9,499 nucleotides of DNA from Candidatus Fermentibacterota bacterium (GTDB taxonomy: Bacteria; JAFGKV01), in NCBI GenBank assembly GCA_030620115.1, contig JAUXFG010000151.1, positions 1-9,499 of the forward strand. The letters run 5' to 3'. The position numbers and the translations under genes are program-made. The notes under the pieces are model-generated. The model ran no database searches and had not been told where the DNA came from. It saw only the letters and a list, made by a program, of their open reading frames with translations. Positions 1,579-9,466 of the stretch are shown here, in pieces (position 1 is the first letter of the stretch; each line of letters opens with the position of its first letter).

Positions 1579-1603
1579 GTGGAAGTGGAAGTGGAAGTGG
1601 AAG
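1576..1603 (+). repeat. GAAGTG hexamer microsatellite
   Basis: There are four perfect GAAGTG units followed by a partial unit. They sit in the trmFO-topA spacer, inside the 62-bp loop between the two arms of the heptamer inverted repeat. The tract is not within a credible gene. Copy number is likely to vary between strains by slippage. Confidence 0.85.
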
Positions 1604-1638
1604 AGATCAGAAGTTGGAGACGCGTTCTTGGTTCCCAT

Positions 1639-1661
1639 CGTTCGGCGTTGGATGTTGAACG
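1639..1661 (+). repeat. Degenerate heptamer tandem repeat, copy 2 (short)
   Basis: About three units of the GTTSRAY heptamer, preceded by TTCGGC. The element is inverted relative to the copy at 1543-1578, so the pair brackets the hexamer microsatellite. Confidence 0.6.
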
Positions 1662-1666
1662 TTTCC

Positions 1667-1700
1667 GCCCGCCTGCCCCGAGCAAAGTCGAAGGGCGGGC
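1667..1700. repeat. GC-rich inverted repeat after topA
   Basis: GCCCGCC (1667-1673) and GGCGGGC (1694-1700) are perfect 7-bp arms around a 20-bp loop, starting 7 bp past the topA stop. On the minus strand it would fold in the topA 3' end, but no T-run follows. The loop resembles another common dispersed intergenic element. It could stabilise the transcript end or be only a mobile-repeat remnant. Confidence 0.55.
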
Positions 1701-1707
1701 AGCCCAA

Positions 1708-3909
1708 CTATCTCGCAACCTCCTGACCGCAGCGCAGGCAGACAAGGGCTTCCTTGTTTCCCTTTTTCGCTTTGCTTGCGGCTCCGGCTCCACATGCAGG
1801 GCACGTCACGGCCTCGGGCTCGCTCCATGTCGCGAATTTGCATTCAGGGTAGCGGCTGCAGCCAAAAAAACGCTTCCCTGCCTTGCTGCGGCGCGTCACC
1901 AGCGTCCCGGTGCAGCCTTCGTTGGGGCATGGAATGCCCGTGGAAAGCGGCATAGTGGTCCTGCAACCAGGATATCGGCTGCAGGCCAGGAACTCCCCGA
2001 AACGCCCCGCCCTGCGAACCATGGGCGCGTCGCATTTCGGGCATCGGGCATCAGTCTCCGTGGGTGGCGTTCCTTCTCGATGCTTGTGCAGTGGTTGCGT
2101 GTGCCGGCATGAGGGAAAACCACTGCAAGCCAGAAACTCCCCGTGTCTCCCGAACTTCACCAGGAGTGGCCGTTCACAAATGGGGCACTTCTCGCCACTG
2201 TCACGTTGAATGGCTTTCCTGACCTCGCTCTGGGCACTCTCGGCCGCCACGAGCTGCGCTCGGAAAGACTCGTAGAAGTCAGATACCACCTGCACCCACG
2301 ACAACTCTCCCACCTCGACCTTGTCGAGTCGTTCCTCTAATTGCGCGGTGAAGCCCACGGCAAAAAGCTCGGGGAATCGTTCCACCAGGATAGTGCACAC
2401 CGCCCGCCCAAGTTCTGTAGGCTTCAGCTGCTTGCTTTCGATGGATACGTATCGTCGTCGTTTGAGCGTCGACAAGATCGTGGCGTATGTGCTTGGGCGA
2501 CCGATACCGCGGGCCTCAAGCTCCTTTACCAGCGATGCCTCGGTGAACCGGGGTTTTGGTTTCGTGAACTGCTGCTTCTTTTCGAGCCGCTTGAGCGTAA
2601 GCAATTGCCCTTTCTCCAGCAGTGGGAGCTCCTCCTCGGTCCGTTTCGCCGGCCACAAAACCGCGTGGCCATCAAACAGTTTCATCACCCCGGAAGCCCG
2701 CAACGTGTATCGGCCGGCGGTAATAAGGATAGTGGTTACTTCCACCTTCTCTCGCTCCATCTGTGACGCCAAGAACCGCCGCCAAATCAGCTCATAGAGG
2801 CGGAACTGTTGTTTGGAAAGCTGCTCTGTGAGGTCTGCCGGTTTCCGGTGCACGTTGGTGGGGCGTATGGCTTCGTGCGCGTCCTGAGCCCTTTTCCGGG
2901 AACCGTATACGGGCGTCCTGGAGGGCACATAGCGGTCGCCCCACTGCCCGCGAATGAAATCACGGGCCGCCTTCTGGGCCACGCTTGCCAGACGATAAGA
3001 ATCCGTCCGCATGTAGGTAATCAGACCCACATGTCCTTCTCCCCGAATATTCACGCCTTCGTAAAGCTCCTGGGCGATCTTCATGGTGCGTTCGGGCGAA
3101 AGACCCAATCGTACGCTGCTTTCCTGCTGGAGCGAACTGGTGATGAACGGGGCCGGTTGTTTTGTCGCCTTGGCCACGCGGTCGACTTTGGAGACGATGT
3201 ACTGCTCTCCGCACAGCGCATCATACGCCCTATCAGCCTCCGCGGCGCAGGTAAGCTTGACCTTCTTTCGGTTCTCAAGCGCAAGCACGGCCTCCAGCGA
3301 TCGACCCTCTTCATCAGCCAAGAAGATTTTGATCGTCCAATACTCTTGTGGAACAAATGCTTCGATTTCTTTCTCCCGTTCCCACACAAGCCGAAGCGCC
3401 ACCGACTGAACCCTCCCCGCCGAGAGATTCGTCTTCAACGTCCGCCATAGGAATGGGCTCACCTTATAGCCCACAAGGCGATCCAAGACACGCCGCGCCT
3501 GCTGCGCATCAACCTTATCCATATCGAGTTGGTGCGGATCTGCAATGGCGCGTGCGATAGCACTCTTGGTGATCTCGTTGAAGAGTACACGGAAACAGGG
3601 AGCCCCTGAGCGGAGGAGGATGGCCTTCACATGCCAGCTTATGGCTTCCCCTTCCCGATCCTGATCAGCGGCGAGGTAGATGGTTTCGCATTTCTTGGCC
3701 GAGGCACGTATCTGCTTGACGATCTTCCCCTTGCCTTTGATCACTTCATACGTGGGTTTGAAGGCATCCTCGGTGTCAACGCCCAACGTTCGGATAGGCA
3801 GATCTCTCACATGCCCCATGGAGGCCATGACCTCGTAGCCAGGACCGAGAAAGCCTTTTATCGTCCTTGCTTTTGCAGGGGATTCAACGATTACAAGCGA
3901 TTTTGCCAT
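1708..3909 (-). CDS. topA: DNA topoisomerase I (type IA)
   Basis: This 733-aa enzyme relaxes negative supercoils by single-strand cleavage and passage. The TOPRIM domain begins at the N-terminus (LVIVESPAKARTIKGFL), with metal-binding Glu9 and the DQD motif at 82-84 (AADQDREGE). The catalytic tyrosine is Tyr299 in GLITYMRTDS. GRPSTYATI (about 470-478) marks the core domain. The C-terminus carries four zinc-ribbon cysteine sets: 575/578/595/601, 623/626/643/649, 661/666/684/690 and 703/706/724/727. The start at 3909 gives the canonical MAKSLVIVES; an upstream ATG at 3957 adds 16 residues foreign to the family. The Shine-Dalgarno site is weak (GTGAAAG). trmFO follows 218 bp downstream. I could not identify a convincing promoter in the 350-bp leader. 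The function is certain. Confidence 0.97.
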   Translation of the reverse strand: MAKSLVIVESPAKARTIKGFLGPGYEVMASMGHVRDLPIRTLGVDTEDAFKPTYEVIKGKGKIVKQIRASAKKCETIYLAADQDREGEAISWHVKAILLRSGAPCFRVLFNEITKSAIARAIADPHQLDMDKVDAQQARRVLDRLVGYKVSPFLWRTLKTNLSAGRVQSVALRLVWEREKEIEAFVPQEYWTIKIFLADEEGRSLEAVLALENRKKVKLTCAAEADRAYDALCGEQYIVSKVDRVAKATKQPAPFITSSLQQESSVRLGLSPERTMKIAQELYEGVNIRGEGHVGLITYMRTDSYRLASVAQKAARDFIRGQWGDRYVPSRTPVYGSRKRAQDAHEAIRPTNVHRKPADLTEQLSKQQFRLYELIWRRFLASQMEREKVEVTTILITAGRYTLRASGVMKLFDGHAVLWPAKRTEEELPLLEKGQLLTLKRLEKKQQFTKPKPRFTEASLVKELEARGIGRPSTYATILSTLKRRRYVSIESKQLKPTELGRAVCTILVERFPELFAVGFTAQLEERLDKVEVGELSWVQVVSDFYESFRAQLVAAESAQSEVRKAIQRDSGEKCPICERPLLVKFGRHGEFLACSGFPSCRHTQPLHKHREGTPPTETDARCPKCDAPMVRRAGRFGEFLACSRYPGCRTTMPLSTGIPCPNEGCTGTLVTRRSKAGKRFFGCSRYPECKFATWSEPEAVTCPACGAGAASKAKKGNKEALVCLRCGQEVAR

Positions 3910-4184: not shown

Positions 4185-4222
4185 TTCGACGTTGAATGTT
4201 GAATGTTCGATGTTCGGTGTTC
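4185..4222 (+). repeat. Degenerate heptamer tandem repeat, copy 3
   Basis: After TTCGAC come about four to five tandem 7-bp units of type GTTSRAT. The structure and orientation match the copy at 9387-9426. It lies just past the stop of the exported-protein gene at 4261. Confidence 0.75.
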
Positions 4223-4260
4223 ATCCCCCATCCCAGCAATCCAGCATTTCCCCATCCTTC

Positions 4261-4872
4261 CTACCCCTGTCCAAGCCGCTGATACACCACCGCCGCAAAT
4301 GTCGCAAGAAAAAGCACGATCACCACTTGAAGGAGCAGAGAGCTATGGCCTTTCCCCTCCTCCGCGTCCTCGGTCTCCACATCAGCCGACGTCTCCGGCA
4401 CCAAACGAGGATCAAGTTGCGCCAACAAATCATCCCCAGGAAGGCTGGTGGGGATTTCGCCCCGGTAATCATAACCCGTGGGTACCTGGAAGGGCGCCTT
4501 CGAGCTCCTGGCCGAGGTGAACCCTTTGCCCATTCGCGCCTCTATGTAGTACTCGACCCCAGATCGCCCCACCAGCCGAGCAGGAATGAGGGCCTGGAAT
4601 AGATCCAGCTCAAGCATGGCCATGGGAATTTCCTGGAATCCACTATCGGATCCCAGCGTCCTGACAAAGAGCCGCACATTGATCATCTCCGGGTTGGGGC
4701 ATTCCACTGCGGCCGTCACGTAGAGCTGGATGAACGGCTCACAATCCAAGGGCGGCTCATGTGAGACGCTCAAGGCAACCTCACTGGATTCCAGGTCTTC
4801 AGGGATCTCTCCAACGGCAAAGGCGGCAAGAGGTACGGTAACCAGAAAGAGGATCGAAACAAGACGTGTCAT
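4261..4872 (-). CDS. Exported protein with C-terminal membrane anchor, unknown function
   Basis: This 203-aa protein is not one I can name. Residues 1-19 form a signal peptide with a likely cut after AFA. Residues 40-130 look like a single beta-sandwich domain. The pattern, with IQLYVTAAV early, alternating hydrophobic strands, and IPARLVGRSGVEYYIEAR late, resembles Ig/fibronectin-like modules of secreted bacterial proteins. Cys44 and Cys58 could pair. A Glu/Asp-rich linker (about 160-174) precedes a transmembrane segment at 178-197 and a short tail (YQRLGQG). The mature domain would therefore sit outside the cytoplasmic membrane, anchored at its C-terminus. The start has AGGGAG just upstream. 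The gene lies beyond the terminator of the pilin operon and has its own putative promoter, so co-function with the pilus is only a positional guess. Confidence 0.8.
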   Translation of the reverse strand: MTRLVSILFLVTVPLAAFAVGEIPEDLESSEVALSVSHEPPLDCEPFIQLYVTAAVECPNPEMINVRLFVRTLGSDSGFQEIPMAMLELDLFQALIPARLVGRSGVEYYIEARMGKGFTSARSSKAPFQVPTGYDYRGEIPTSLPGDDLLAQLDPRLVPETSADVETEDAEEGKGHSSLLLQVVIVLFLATFAAVVYQRLGQG

Positions 4873-4990: not shown

Positions 4991-5028
4991 ACAAAAAGAG
5001 GGGGCCTCGGCCCTGCCGAAGCCCCCTC
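4991..5028 (-). terminator. Rho-independent terminator of the pilin operon
   Basis: On the minus strand a 14-bp stem (one G-U pair) with a 3-nt AGG loop spans 5028-4998. It begins with GAGGGGGC and is followed directly by TTTTTGT. It starts 28 nt past the pilX-like stop. No T-run flanks the other side, so it acts only leftward. Confidence 0.92.
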
Positions 5029-5055: not shown

Positions 5056-6459
5056 CTAGTAAACCTCTCTCCAGCTCCCCTCACACTTCGATACCTTGGT
5101 AATCGGCTGGTTATGATCTTTCAAAGGAGGAAACCCAGGTGGTGGGCACCTGCACCCGCGCTTGTCGTGCGTGGTGTCCGTGCCGTACCCGTGCTCGAAA
5201 TGCCAGTCCTCGGTCGCCGTAATCTCGGCCACAACTAAGCCGCCATACATATAGAGGATTCCCTCACGGTCACGTCCAGTGCAGTTGACAACATCCAGTT
5301 TCCCATCGCTCCGAAGAGCGATCAGATAGGCCTGGATGATGCGATCGCCGTCCACGCCAAGCGGATTAACGTCGGGAATGATGATGTCGCCATCGCGCTT
5401 GTAGGCCGCCACCAGTCCCAACATATCATCACAGTGCGGGTTGAAGCGGGGATCATCGGCCAGGAGTATGTCATCCTGTATGATGATGTTCCGGTCCACC
5501 ACGATGGTAAGCTGCCCGTTCAGCGTTCCGCTGACATCGGCATCGCCTTCGCCGCCGGTGAATTCGACGTGGCACACGCCGGGGATCGGGATCGGCATCA
5601 CCGTGCTATCGGCCAGCGCATGATTCCATACCGCTATGGTCCCATCAGCATGGAGCAGGATCCTCGTATTCTTCTCCCACACATAGTTCGGATCGATCCC
5701 GTCCACCACGTTTCCGAAATCGGGCGGGTAGTCGATCTTGTCGACACCTGTCTCGTACCCCTCGTAGAAGGTGGCGAAGCACTCGGGCTCAGTGCCGCCA
5801 CCGCAGCCGCTTTCCCCCCCTTTTTTGAAACTGTTGTGGTGCTGGCTCACAGGTCCCCAGAAACGGGCTCCAATCCACGGGGGATAATCGGGGGGATTCT
5901 TATTTGCTATCCACATCTGACCGTTGCAATGGACCGGTCCTTTGACCACATCGTAGTCCCCGAAATACGCTTGGCACCTTTCGAAGAACTGCGCATAACA
6001 TGACGAGTTGTCGTACCCGACACTAACATCGATTTCAGTCGCTCCTTGCGTGCCGTGGGCCGTGGTCCCATCAGCATGGATAATATACTTCCACGTACGG
6101 TCATCGCCTCCGATGTCCGAGCAATCGAAGCCTCCTTCGCTGCAGTCGTTGGCGGCATCGGCGTAGATAACCGGATTCGTCGTGCCGCAGGATACCACAC
6201 TTATGCTCCCAAGGGGGATGCTCCCCCCGGCTTGGCACGGCGCCGGGTCTTGGTTCTGAAGCCATTGGTAGCCATACGCCAGCCCGGCCTCCGAGAGCTG
6301 CCCGGCAGACATCGACTCCTGCTCATTGAACGACATCTTATACTCTGTCACGGACGATGTCATGAATCCGCCCGCCAGAATTCCCAGGATCAGGAGTGAA
6401 AAGATGGCCATGATGAGAGCCATGCCCTTTTTCCCTGCTCCTCCATGAAATGCTGTCAT
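5056..6459 (-). CDS. pilX: PilX-like pilus assembly protein, large and cysteine-rich
   Basis: This 467-aa protein is the last gene of the minor-pilin operon. Residues 10-70 match the PilX N-terminal type: a short basic start (GKKGMALIMAIFSLLILGIL), a membrane helix, then an amphipathic helix with NEQESMSAGQLSEAGLAYGY. There is no clear class III prepilin cleavage site. The rest is predicted extracytoplasmic and holds 15 cysteines. The C-terminal third (about 305-445) has GTLNGQLTIVVDRNIII, DDMLGLVAAY and GYGTDTTHDKR..PPPGFPP blocks. I recall these from large PilX-like proteins with a DUF4900-type domain; that name needs checking. PilX proteins of Pseudomonas and Neisseria are under half this length. 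The ATG at 6459 has GAGGAGG upstream; a 14-residue upstream extension would overlap pilW. An A6G7 run in the coding strand (5814-5826) sits mid-gene. Confidence 0.82.
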   Translation of the reverse strand: MTAFHGGAGKKGMALIMAIFSLLILGILAGGFMTSSVTEYKMSFNEQESMSAGQLSEAGLAYGYQWLQNQDPAPCQAGGSIPLGSISVVSCGTTNPVIYADAANDCSEGGFDCSDIGGDDRTWKYIIHADGTTAHGTQGATEIDVSVGYDNSSCYAQFFERCQAYFGDYDVVKGPVHCNGQMWIANKNPPDYPPWIGARFWGPVSQHHNSFKKGGESGCGGGTEPECFATFYEGYETGVDKIDYPPDFGNVVDGIDPNYVWEKNTRILLHADGTIAVWNHALADSTVMPIPIPGVCHVEFTGGEGDADVSGTLNGQLTIVVDRNIIIQDDILLADDPRFNPHCDDMLGLVAAYKRDGDIIIPDVNPLGVDGDRIIQAYLIALRSDGKLDVVNCTGRDREGILYMYGGLVVAEITATEDWHFEHGYGTDTTHDKRGCRCPPPGFPPLKDHNQPITKVSKCEGSWREVY

Positions 6460-6470
6460 GAGACCCTCCT

Positions 6471-6986
6471 CTATAGGTTTCTGGTTTTCACCTTGCCACA
6501 CAAGATCAATGTATCCGTCCCGTCGGTGCTCAATACACCGAGGGTCACCTCAATGCCTTTCACCGCTTGATCGGTCATAAGTGTAATAGGAGTCGGCAGG
6601 ATACTACCTTCAGGGTTGGTGTATTCGAAGTTCAACAGGAACGCGTTGGGTATCAGTTCCTGCATGCCGCTCCCGCCGGCCTCGCGCTTCAACCAATTCC
6701 CGACGAGGGCGTACTTGTAGGTCATCAGCGCTGAGGTGCCGATCTTGGCATCGAACTGAATTGAATTGGCCTCTCCCTGCTGGATCCCACTCACATGACG
6801 CAGCTCACGGCTCAGTATGTCAAATGCCGCCCGCGCATCATTTGTCTTGATCGCCCGCATCTGCAACGGCTCATTCAGATTGAGGTGGCCGCGAAACAAC
6901 ATGAGGACCGCCGCGCTGATGAACATGAAGACCACTATGGCTATCAACAACTCCACCAGCGTTGTTCCACGCGTTTTCCGTGTCAT
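6471..6986 (-). CDS. pilW: Type IV pilus minor pilin, PilW-like
   Basis: This 171-aa type IV pilin-like protein has a short leader (MTRKTRG) cut by prepilin peptidase after Gly7, then TTLVELLIAIVVFMFISAAVLML. Glu at mature position +5 is kept, but +1 is Thr instead of the usual Phe/Met. The remainder is a globular domain with RAAFDILSRELRHVSGI, the helix-strand pattern of PilW/GspJ-like proteins. It is probably part of the minor-pilin complex that primes filament assembly at the inner membrane. GGAGG lies 6 bases before the ATG and overlaps the pilV-like stop, and the gap is 10 bp, indicating translational coupling. The assignment as PilW rests on its third position in the cluster and on length; GspJ-like is the alternative. 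Confidence 0.82.
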   Translation of the reverse strand: MTRKTRGTTLVELLIAIVVFMFISAAVLMLFRGHLNLNEPLQMRAIKTNDARAAFDILSRELRHVSGIQQGEANSIQFDAKIGTSALMTYKYALVGNWLKREAGGSGMQELIPNAFLLNFEYTNPEGSILPTPITLMTDQAVKGIEVTLGVLSTDGTDTLILCGKVKTRNL

Positions 6987-6996
6987 TGACGACCTC

Positions 6997-7350
6997 CTAG
7001 TACTTGGCTCCGTAAATGGTGGCCATCTTCACCCCGTGATTCTGCCCAAGCCAATTCCAGCTCACGGTCACTTCGGCGGTCTTACAATTAGCAATAGGGC
7101 CGGCAACAACAGACCACGCAATCGTGTATCGACCCTCCACAAGGTTTCCCGATGCGATGCTGGGATAATCCTTTGTCCCAAGGTCTTCCAATATACGTTG
7201 TGCGATCACGGAAGCTTCGGTCTGAAATTGACCCTGGATAACTGCCTGGGTTCCTGCCGGCCACTGGCCCACAATGGCCAGTAGACCGATGAGGAGTATG
7301 GCCGTAGCTACCATCACTTCCACGAGGCTAAAACCGCTTTCTCTTCTCAT
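6997..7350 (-). CDS. pilV: Type IV pilus minor pilin, PilV-like
   Basis: This 117-aa prepilin has the leader MRRESG cut before FSLVEVMVATAILLIGLLAIVGQW. This is a canonical class III site with Phe +1 and Glu +5, and ILLIGLLAI is typical of PilV/GspI proteins. The short C-terminal domain (about 50-117) is beta-rich with one cysteine. The ATG at 7350 follows a GGGGG ribosome-binding stretch. Upstream in-frame codons to 7593 overlap the preceding pilin gene and are not used. The gap from the gspH-like stop is 13 bp. It is inferred to join the other pseudopilins in the initiation complex at the pilus tip. GspI of a type II secretion system is the main alternative, but the PilX-like partner favours type IV pili. 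Confidence 0.85.
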   Translation of the reverse strand: MRRESGFSLVEVMVATAILLIGLLAIVGQWPAGTQAVIQGQFQTEASVIAQRILEDLGTKDYPSIASGNLVEGRYTIAWSVVAGPIANCKTAEVTVSWNWLGQNHGVKMATIYGAKY

Positions 7351-7363
7351 CTTGGCCCCCTCA

Positions 7364-7786
7364 TCAAGCGTCCTCGATTTTGATGCGGCCCACCGAATTG
7401 ACGGTGATCTTCCTGGCAGTCCCTGCATCATTCTCCACCGTGATGGAGCCACCAATACAGGTCCCCCGGGGATGGAAATCCGGTGTGCCAGTCGTGGCTT
7501 GAACACTCGCCCCACCGGGAAGCGCAAATCGGTAGAGTGTGTCACCGTCGGTAGCGTTGTAGACGCATATTCTCGTGGTAAGGGCCACCACATGAATATT
7601 GTCTCTCGTGGTCACCGCCATCTGGCGCGCAAATCGCATGGCATTCACCACCTTCTCGGTAGCGGTATCAATCTTCGCCTCGTCCAAGGTTGACTTGTAT
7701 CGGGGGATAAGGCTGGCCGACAAGATGAGAATGATTGCGAGGACTAGTGCTATCTCCACCATCGAGAATCCTTTATTCGCCCTCAT
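7364..7786 (-). CDS. Type IV pilin-like protein, GspH/FimT type
   Basis: This is the first gene of the operon, 140 aa. The leader MRANKG precedes FSMVEIALVLAIILILSASLIPRY, with Phe +1 and Glu +5 of a prepilin peptidase substrate. The following DEAKIDTATEKVVNAMRFARQMAVTTRDNI is the helix typical of GspH/FimT proteins. A beta-rich C-terminal half carries two cysteines (CVYNA and TCIGG) that could form a disulfide. AGGTGGTG lies about 9 nt before the ATG at 7786. The longer frame up to 7978 would run through the sigma-54 promoter and lacks pilin features, so it is rejected. The gene ends with tandem TGA TGA stops. FimT/FimU leading a pilV-pilW-pilX series is the usual order in type IV minor-pilin clusters. 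Confidence 0.87.
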   Translation of the reverse strand: MRANKGFSMVEIALVLAIILILSASLIPRYKSTLDEAKIDTATEKVVNAMRFARQMAVTTRDNIHVVALTTRICVYNATDGDTLYRFALPGGASVQATTGTPDFHPRGTCIGGSITVENDAGTARKITVNSVGRIKIEDA

Positions 7787-7887
7787 AGGCACATCACCAC
7801 CTTTCTGTCGATAGTCTGGGCTTCTCACAGAATCGAGCCTGTATGCACTTCTCCGCTCCCATATACTATTCCGAGTTTGAAGATACC

Positions 7888-7903
7888 TGCAAAATCGGTG
7901 CCA
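7888..7903 (-). promoter_or_regulatory. Sigma-54 (RpoN) -24/-12 promoter of the pilin operon
   Basis: On the minus strand TGGCAC-N5-TTGCA matches the RpoN consensus (TGGCACR-N4-TTGCW) at every defined position except the R. Transcription would start near 7878, leaving a leader of about 90 nt before the GspH/FimT-like ATG. It faces the operon and lies in non-coding DNA. RpoN control of pilin genes through an NtrC-family activator such as PilR is established elsewhere. A weak sigma-70-like TTGCAG-N18-TAGTAT overlaps but is much poorer. Confidence 0.8.
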
Positions 7904-8018
7904 CGCAATCCCCACGCCCGGAATCAGGGCCGGGGAAGCCCTCTCACGCACCACACCGTCTCTGGCAAGAATGCGCATCAGCGTAGCGCTCGTTGCCTAC
8001 ACCCGGGTCCCTACTATG

Positions 8019-8055
8019 ATACCCATTTCACTAGGTATGAAAAACATTTCATACC
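8019..8055. promoter_or_regulatory. Overlapping inverted repeats, putative enhancer-binding-protein site
   Basis: GGTATGAAA (8034-8042) and TTTCATACC (8047-8055) form a perfect 9-bp inverted repeat with a 4-bp gap. A further ATACC at 8019-8023 pairs with the GGTAT at 8034-8038, giving a second inverted pair 10 bp apart. The left and right ATACC elements are 32 bp apart, about three helical turns. The array lies roughly 140-180 bp upstream of the predicted RpoN start, where NtrC-type activators usually bind. An operator for the rightward tRNA promoter is the alternative, as it ends 27 bp before that -35 box. Confidence 0.55.
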
Positions 8056-8137: not shown

Positions 8138-8213
8138 GGCGGCGTAGCTCAGTTGGCAGAGCAGCGGAATCATAATCCGTAGGTCCGGGGTTCAAGTCCC
8201 TGCGCCGCTACCA
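8138..8213 (+). tRNA. tRNA-Met (anticodon CAU), elongator type
   Basis: A complete 76-nt cloverleaf with an encoded CCA end. The acceptor stem is GGCGGCG/CGCCGCT, followed by U8-A9, a GCTC/GAGC D-stem with AGTTGGCA loop, and a GCGGA/TCCGT anticodon stem. CAT is at 8171-8173 in a 7-nt loop. The variable loop has 5 nt and the T-arm is CGGGG/CCCTG with a TTCAAGT loop. The first pair is G-U, as in many bacterial elongator tRNA-Met genes, and the body resembles that class. A tRNA-Ile2 read by lysidine modification also has CAU and is the less likely alternative. The initiator is unlikely because the GGG/CCC anticodon-stem pairs are missing. Confidence 0.95.
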
Positions 8214-9386: not shown

Positions 9387-9426
9387 TTCGACGTTCGATG
9401 TTCGGTGTTGGATGTTCGATGTTCAA
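9387..9426 (+). repeat. Degenerate heptamer tandem repeat, copy 4
   Basis: TTCGAC is followed by about five tandem 7-bp units of type GTTSRAT. It abuts the start region of the radical SAM gene. It has the same head (TTCGAC) and orientation as the copy at 4185-4222. Confidence 0.75.
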
Positions 9427-9466
9427 TCTGCAATCCCGCATTCCAGCTCCCCTCCTCCCTCCTCCC

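Follow-up and report, generated by a model that had tools for sequence, protein, structure and literature searches.

Tandem dyads and a sigma-54 promoter upstream of a minor-pilin operon in Candidatus Fermentibacterota: evidence for enhancer-dependent control

Introduction

Major pilins are the classical pilus targets of RpoN. PilS-PilR and RpoN control pilA in Pseudomonas aeruginosa, Geobacter sulfurreducens and Kingella kingae, with Nps-Npa and pilE as the commensal Neisseria case. At such promoters the sigma-54 holoenzyme waits as a closed complex and requires a distantly bound AAA+ activator. Contig JAUXFG010000151.1 of a Candidatus Fermentibacterota bacterium (9,499 nt, hereafter the window) raises the question of whether a minor-pilin operon can be controlled in the same manner, and if so through which operator and by which protein. 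The first-pass annotation had proposed a sigma-54 element facing the pilin operon, together with a perfect inverted repeat and an extra half-site upstream, as the arrangement of an NtrC-family activator and RpoN. We followed up this proposal in the organism's own genome (G000) and in two relatives of the same family (G001 and G002), a comparison set of three species. The genome-wide scans were pattern searches.

The minor-pilin operon and its promoter

The operon consists of four tightly spaced genes on the minus strand (7786 to 5056), with a plausible ribosome site at most of them (Table 1). They are consecutive fimU-, pilV-, pilW- and pilX-like genes with class III signal peptides, as indicated by PF12019, three matches to PF07963 and the PilX-like protein, which itself gave no match in Pfam or NCBIfam. 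A 204-aa frame from 7978 would span the promoter. The first pilin likely starts at 7786 instead, because its MR..KGF start and the preceding GAAAGG.GGTG stretch are conserved in both relatives.

Table 1. Features of the minor-pilin locus in the window
Feature	Position	Strand	Remarks
Distal dyad TATGAAATGTTTTTCATA, perfect, inside the 22-bp palindrome 8034-8055	8036-8053	-	tandem pair kept in G001 and G002
Proximal dyad AGTGAAATGGGTATCATA, degenerate, 21 bp from the distal dyad	8015-8032	-	direct repeat D2
Putative sigma-54 (-24/-12) promoter TGGCACCGATTTTGC	7903-7889	-	exact TGGCAC-N5-TTGC; orthologous elements in two relatives
GspH/FimU-like minor pilin, first gene, ATG at 7786 after GAAAGGTGGTGA	7364-7786	-	PF12019, PF07963; three-way alignment
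PilV/GspI-like minor pilin	6997-7350	-	PF07963; NCBIfam PilV/XpsI below cut-off
PilW/GspJ-like minor pilin	6471-6986	-	PF07963; gspJ below cut-off
PilX-like protein, last gene, hydrophobic N-terminus GMALIMAIFSLLILGILAGGF	5056-6459	-	same position in G001 and G002 operons
Terminator-like hairpin, 14 pairs then TTTTTGTCTC	4998-5028	-	directly after the operon; strong, with a T run
Divergent tRNA-Met gene	8138-8213		palindrome upstream, at a distance of 83 bp

The sigma-54 element was found where it had been described, as the only match to TGGCAC-N5-TTGC without mismatch in the window. It is followed by an A, which extends it to TGGCACCGATTTTGCA (7903-7888, minus strand). The -24 GG and the -12 GC stand at the correct spacing within this context, and 102 bp separate the -12 GC from the first ATG of the operon. 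Transcription would be predicted to start near 7878, a sigma-54 transcript being expected to begin about 12 nt past the -12 GC and to require RpoN.

Other features were observed around the operon. Directly past its terminator, positions 4261-4872 (minus strand) probably encode a secreted protein, with no Pfam match. Dispersed intergenic repeats occur in the window (1600-1760, 4190-4260 and 9390-9450) and in L161 (9283-9567) and L067 (3-659); their translations resemble 'FDVRCSMLNVG/NIEHPTPNIE' and 'VILSDCKERRISPSSSFCHLN'.

The upstream dyad array

The perfect 9-bp inverted repeat, GGTATGAAA-N4-TTTCATACC, was recovered at 8034-8055, while the supposed extra half-site proved to be a second, degenerate full dyad. 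Read on the pilin strand, the array is GGTATGAAATGTTTTTCATACC TAG TGAAATGGGTATCATA. The upstream element is therefore two tandem TGAA-N6-TTCA dyads, 21 bp apart, with a conserved core shorter than the 9-bp arms. The array lies 131-166 bp upstream of the promoter, in agreement with the 130-170 bp noted earlier, and 155.5 bp separate the centre of the distal dyad from the end of the -12 GC. This position, at about -140 to -175 with the dyads two turns apart, fits a distant AAA+ activator. The operator as first written, GGTATGAAA-N4-TTTCATACC, had to give way to the tandem TGAA-N6-TTCA pair, and it showed no second match with up to 3 mismatches in the 4.1-Mb own genome. With a matrix built from other loci, the array scored above all 2000 dinucleotide shuffles of the 504-bp upstream region.

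Conservation and pattern searches

Between the first pilin and its orthologues in G001 and G002, identity is 50% and 47%. Promoter and upstream sites, which had been expected to be conserved before orthologous operons, were seen in both relatives. In G001, the -24/-12 element CGGCACGATGCTTGC lies 83 bp before the ATG, and the dyads GTGAACGCCGCTTCAC and GTGAAAGGCGTTTCGTG are 20 bp apart, with the distal centre 147.5 bp from the -12. The corresponding element in G002 is TGGCACGCCACTTGC, 95 bp before the ATG, with dyads GTGAAAGTCCCTTCAC and GGAATGCGGTTTCAC also 20 bp apart and the distal centre at 150.5 bp. Records labelled Candidatus Fermentibacteria (JAFGKV010000231.1) and Candidatus Eisenbacteria (JALOPK010000254.1) contain orthologous loci with the same arrays, seemingly those of the two relatives. 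NtrC-family upstream activator sites are dyads, usually paired on the same face of the helix and placed roughly 80-300 bp upstream, and this layout was seen in three species. Conservation was judged from direct spacing measurements; when the upstream regions of all three operons were aligned with MAFFT, the G001 promoter fell out of register. A palindrome spotted by eye at L005 (about 2275-2238), ATATAGGAC...GTCCTATAT, was dropped; a GTGAA-N6-TTCAC pair fits the conserved distance.

The neighbour on the far side of the block differs in each species, with tRNA-Met in the own genome and a NusG-like frame or an RsgA-like GTPase frame in the relatives (both labels were read from the sequence rather than assigned by family search). 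The promoter and dyad block therefore belongs to the pilin operon and travels with it.

Across the three genomes (12.8 Mb), the combined pattern TGAA-N6-TTCA-N(105-135)-BGGMAY-N6-TGC gave exactly three matches, all at the orthologous minor-pilin operons, and its reversed control gave none. Tandem TGAA-N6-TTCA pairs with at most 2 mismatches occurred at 10 places in these genomes. Half of them (5/10) have a -24/-12 score of at least 21 within 300 bp downstream in one orientation, against a background of about 0.016 per 600 nt, and the other five have none. The five arrays with a strong promoter comprise the three orthologous operons, contig C81 of G000 and contig C184 of G001, and lie 106-223 bp upstream of their -24/-12 elements. 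None of 2000 shuffles reached the array score at any of the five loci with matrices that left out the tested locus, a test that is partly circular for C81 and C184, both found by the pattern itself. Among 20 oriented dyads (ten sites in both directions), the GAA / TTC positions are nearly invariant (20/20, 20/20 and 18/20), and the outer T and A are kept in 17/20. In 79 pilin loci from other bacteria, an array with a strong -24/-12 element was found nowhere but in the two known relatives.

Candidate regulon

The first-pass suggestion that the operator could define a regulon holds for one form of the motif. The full 22-bp operator finds only itself and therefore defines no regulon; the shorter tandem core leads to two further loci. 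On C81 of G000, the sole mismatch-free tandem array precedes a PilX paralogue (43% identical), and the sigma-54 element TGGAACGAAATATGC stands about 95 bp before that gene. On C184 of G001, an array and the element TGGCATGCGTATTGC stand before a phosphatase-like gene that has a CxxCH motif at the C-terminal end; GspE-like, GspF-like and pilin genes come next, and except for the pilin, these names are readings of the translations. Since similar arrays occur at the PilX paralogue and in the relative, a small regulon is likely, and the activator of the minor-pilin operon probably acts on a few further pilus or secretion operons as well. The stretches examined around the pilB-T-C-S-T-R cluster, pilS/pilR and other pilin genes contain no such array.

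Another PilX paralogue, on C258 of G000 (83% identical), was not counted among the regulon members, as it is without such dyads. CGGCATGAATTATGCA stands about 55 bp ahead of its ATG, and direct repeats of TGTTAAGAGCA take the place of dyads upstream (L161, about 7500-7660). The phosphatase-like frame on C184 (L113, about 1804-3178) contains an in-frame TGA in EPCG*GGAQQGGLARRAT, possibly selenocysteine, and a haem-type CRACH motif near the C-terminus.

Candidate activators

Both genes that the first-pass annotation had recommended looking for are encoded in the genome. An rpoN gene is present on C249 of G000 (PF04552, E 2.1e-59), and a PilR-like gene was found on C14, besides other NtrC-family activators; in total, PF00158 gave 14 strong matches in the own genome. 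The gene order on C14 is pilB-pilT-pilC-pilS-pilT-pilR, so that PilS-PilR are encoded within the type IV pilus cluster. The PilS-like protein is a membrane histidine kinase, and PilR is a response regulator of the NtrC type whose loop reads GSFTGA. Its orthologue on C154 of G001 is 65% identical and shows the same PilS-PilT-PilR order, and the letters of the recognition helix (DPSTLYRKL) are identical in the two proteins. No clear PilR was found in G002, but this 82%-complete genome also lacks an orthologous PilT, so the negative result carries no weight.

From this genomic association, the PilR of the pilB-T-C-S-T-R cluster is our leading guess for the activator, a tentative one at odds a little short of even. 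There is also close to an even chance that the same architecture is served by the response regulator on C105 of G000 or by another NtrC-family protein. C105-type orthologues occur in all three genomes (C93 of G001 and C314 of G002, 62-76% identical), PilR having been found in two with the third 82% complete, and in G000 and G001 the activator gene and a pilin-like gene are arranged head-to-head. However, neither the C105 nor the C93 intergenic region contains a TGAA-N6-TTCA array, and it is PilR that belongs to the pilus assembly cluster.

A histidine kinase gene lies alongside the pilin-like gene and NtrC-family regulator pair on C105 (L072, 9298-9964) and C93 (L114, 8628-9110). A PilR of the classical kind should act at pilA. 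The major pilin of G000 was not identified with certainty; the one pilA-like gene found with a strong sigma-54 element, on C228 of G001, has a different palindrome. This element is CGGCACGGGAGTTGC (L112, 1117-1218), and the near-perfect palindrome just upstream, TGCGGAATGCAA-N7-TTGCATTCTGCA, would be a second type of pilin enhancer.

Discussion

We conclude that 7787-8055 is probably (roughly 0.87) the enhancer-dependent promoter of the gspH/fimU-pilV-pilW-pilX operon, a reading drawn from sequence comparison; this probability applies to the architecture and does not extend to which activator serves it. The proposed arrangement of an NtrC-family activator with RpoN is supported by the rpoN gene, the encoded activators and the conserved promoter and sites. 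In the mechanism that we envisage, an NtrC-family activator would bind both TGAA-N6-TTCA dyads, which share a face of the DNA at a distance of about two helical turns, and would oligomerise once activated, probably through phosphorylation. The bound activator would then loop to the RNA polymerase-sigma-54 held at TGGCAC-N5-TTGC, where ATP hydrolysis would drive open-complex formation with a start near 7878.

Other explanations of the dyads were weighed against this reading. A lone perfect dyad is typical of many dimeric regulators, and the site might bind a repressor or another regulator of non-enhancer type and merely lie beside a sigma-54 promoter. We consider this improbable, as sigma-54 promoters require an enhancer-binding protein, and at all five loci two dyads in tandem, spaced by about two helical turns, precede the -24/-12 element by 106-223 bp. 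The palindrome also lies close to the divergent tRNA-Met gene, 83 bp upstream of it, and could belong to that gene as a regulatory or terminator element. This attribution was discarded as very improbable, being contradicted by the relatives, in which the array is kept before the pilin operon with no tRNA gene adjacent. Chance similarity of promoter and palindrome is hardly credible: a single 10-base match is expected a few times per bacterial genome, but here three species share the position, the spacing and both motifs, and 0 of 2000 shuffles reached the array score.

Enhancer-dependent control of the operon, the reading that we prefer, can be compared with known systems. It resembles the PilS-PilR/pilA systems in its sigma-54 promoter, upstream activator site and pilus-subunit target, and the PilSR pair is encoded here, the activator itself being predicted; it differs in that the target is a minor-pilin operon. 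Apart from pilE, nine pilus loci of commensal Neisseria, minor pilins among them, proved to be RpoN-independent (PMC6528607). The minor-pilin genes of P. aeruginosa change in pilR mutants and were earlier identified as Vfr dependent (PMC6058289). The PilR sites of this species were described as NifA-like TGT-N11-AGA with GTCT elements (PMC6058289), and the TGAA-N6-TTCA core, compared by eye, is unlike them.

Two tandem dyads upstream of sigma-54 promoters are also known for NmpR, an NtrC-like response regulator of Myxococcus xanthus, whose sites are GCGCA-N5-TGCGC, two of them about 14-15 bp apart, with pairing used as the criterion for real sites (PMC11841059). The half-site and spacing are different here, the activator is predicted, and the targets of NmpR are an oxygen-utilisation regulon and pilR, not minor pilins. 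In Desulfovibrio vulgaris, the NtrC-family response regulator DVU2114 targets pilin and pilus assembly operons (PMC3333781; PMC4641369). The pilin operon as target and the predicted NtrC-family activator are shared features, whereas the DVU2114 targets are Tad/Flp-type pili. In our literature search of open-licence papers, no described motif matched the TGAA-N6-TTCA operator. The locus is thus very probably a real case of a mechanism of familiar kind with a less usual target, the minor pilins, and an operator motif unmatched to described ones.

For this uncultivated lineage, whose relatives are labelled Candidatus Eisenbacteria and Candidatus Fermentibacteria, the results yield an operator motif together with a small candidate regulon, and they point to direct sigma-54 control of minor pilins, in contrast to the RpoN-independent minor pilins of commensal Neisseria. 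A more far-reaching idea, which we regard as rather unlikely, is that a dedicated activator, distinct from that of the major pilin, uses tandem TGAA-N6-TTCA enhancers for the minor pilins, an extra PilX and, in the relative, the cluster of phosphatase-cytochrome, secretion-type ATPase and pilin genes, with the tip tuned separately from the shaft. If this were true, the composition of the pilus tip would be adjusted apart from the shaft in this uncultivated lineage.
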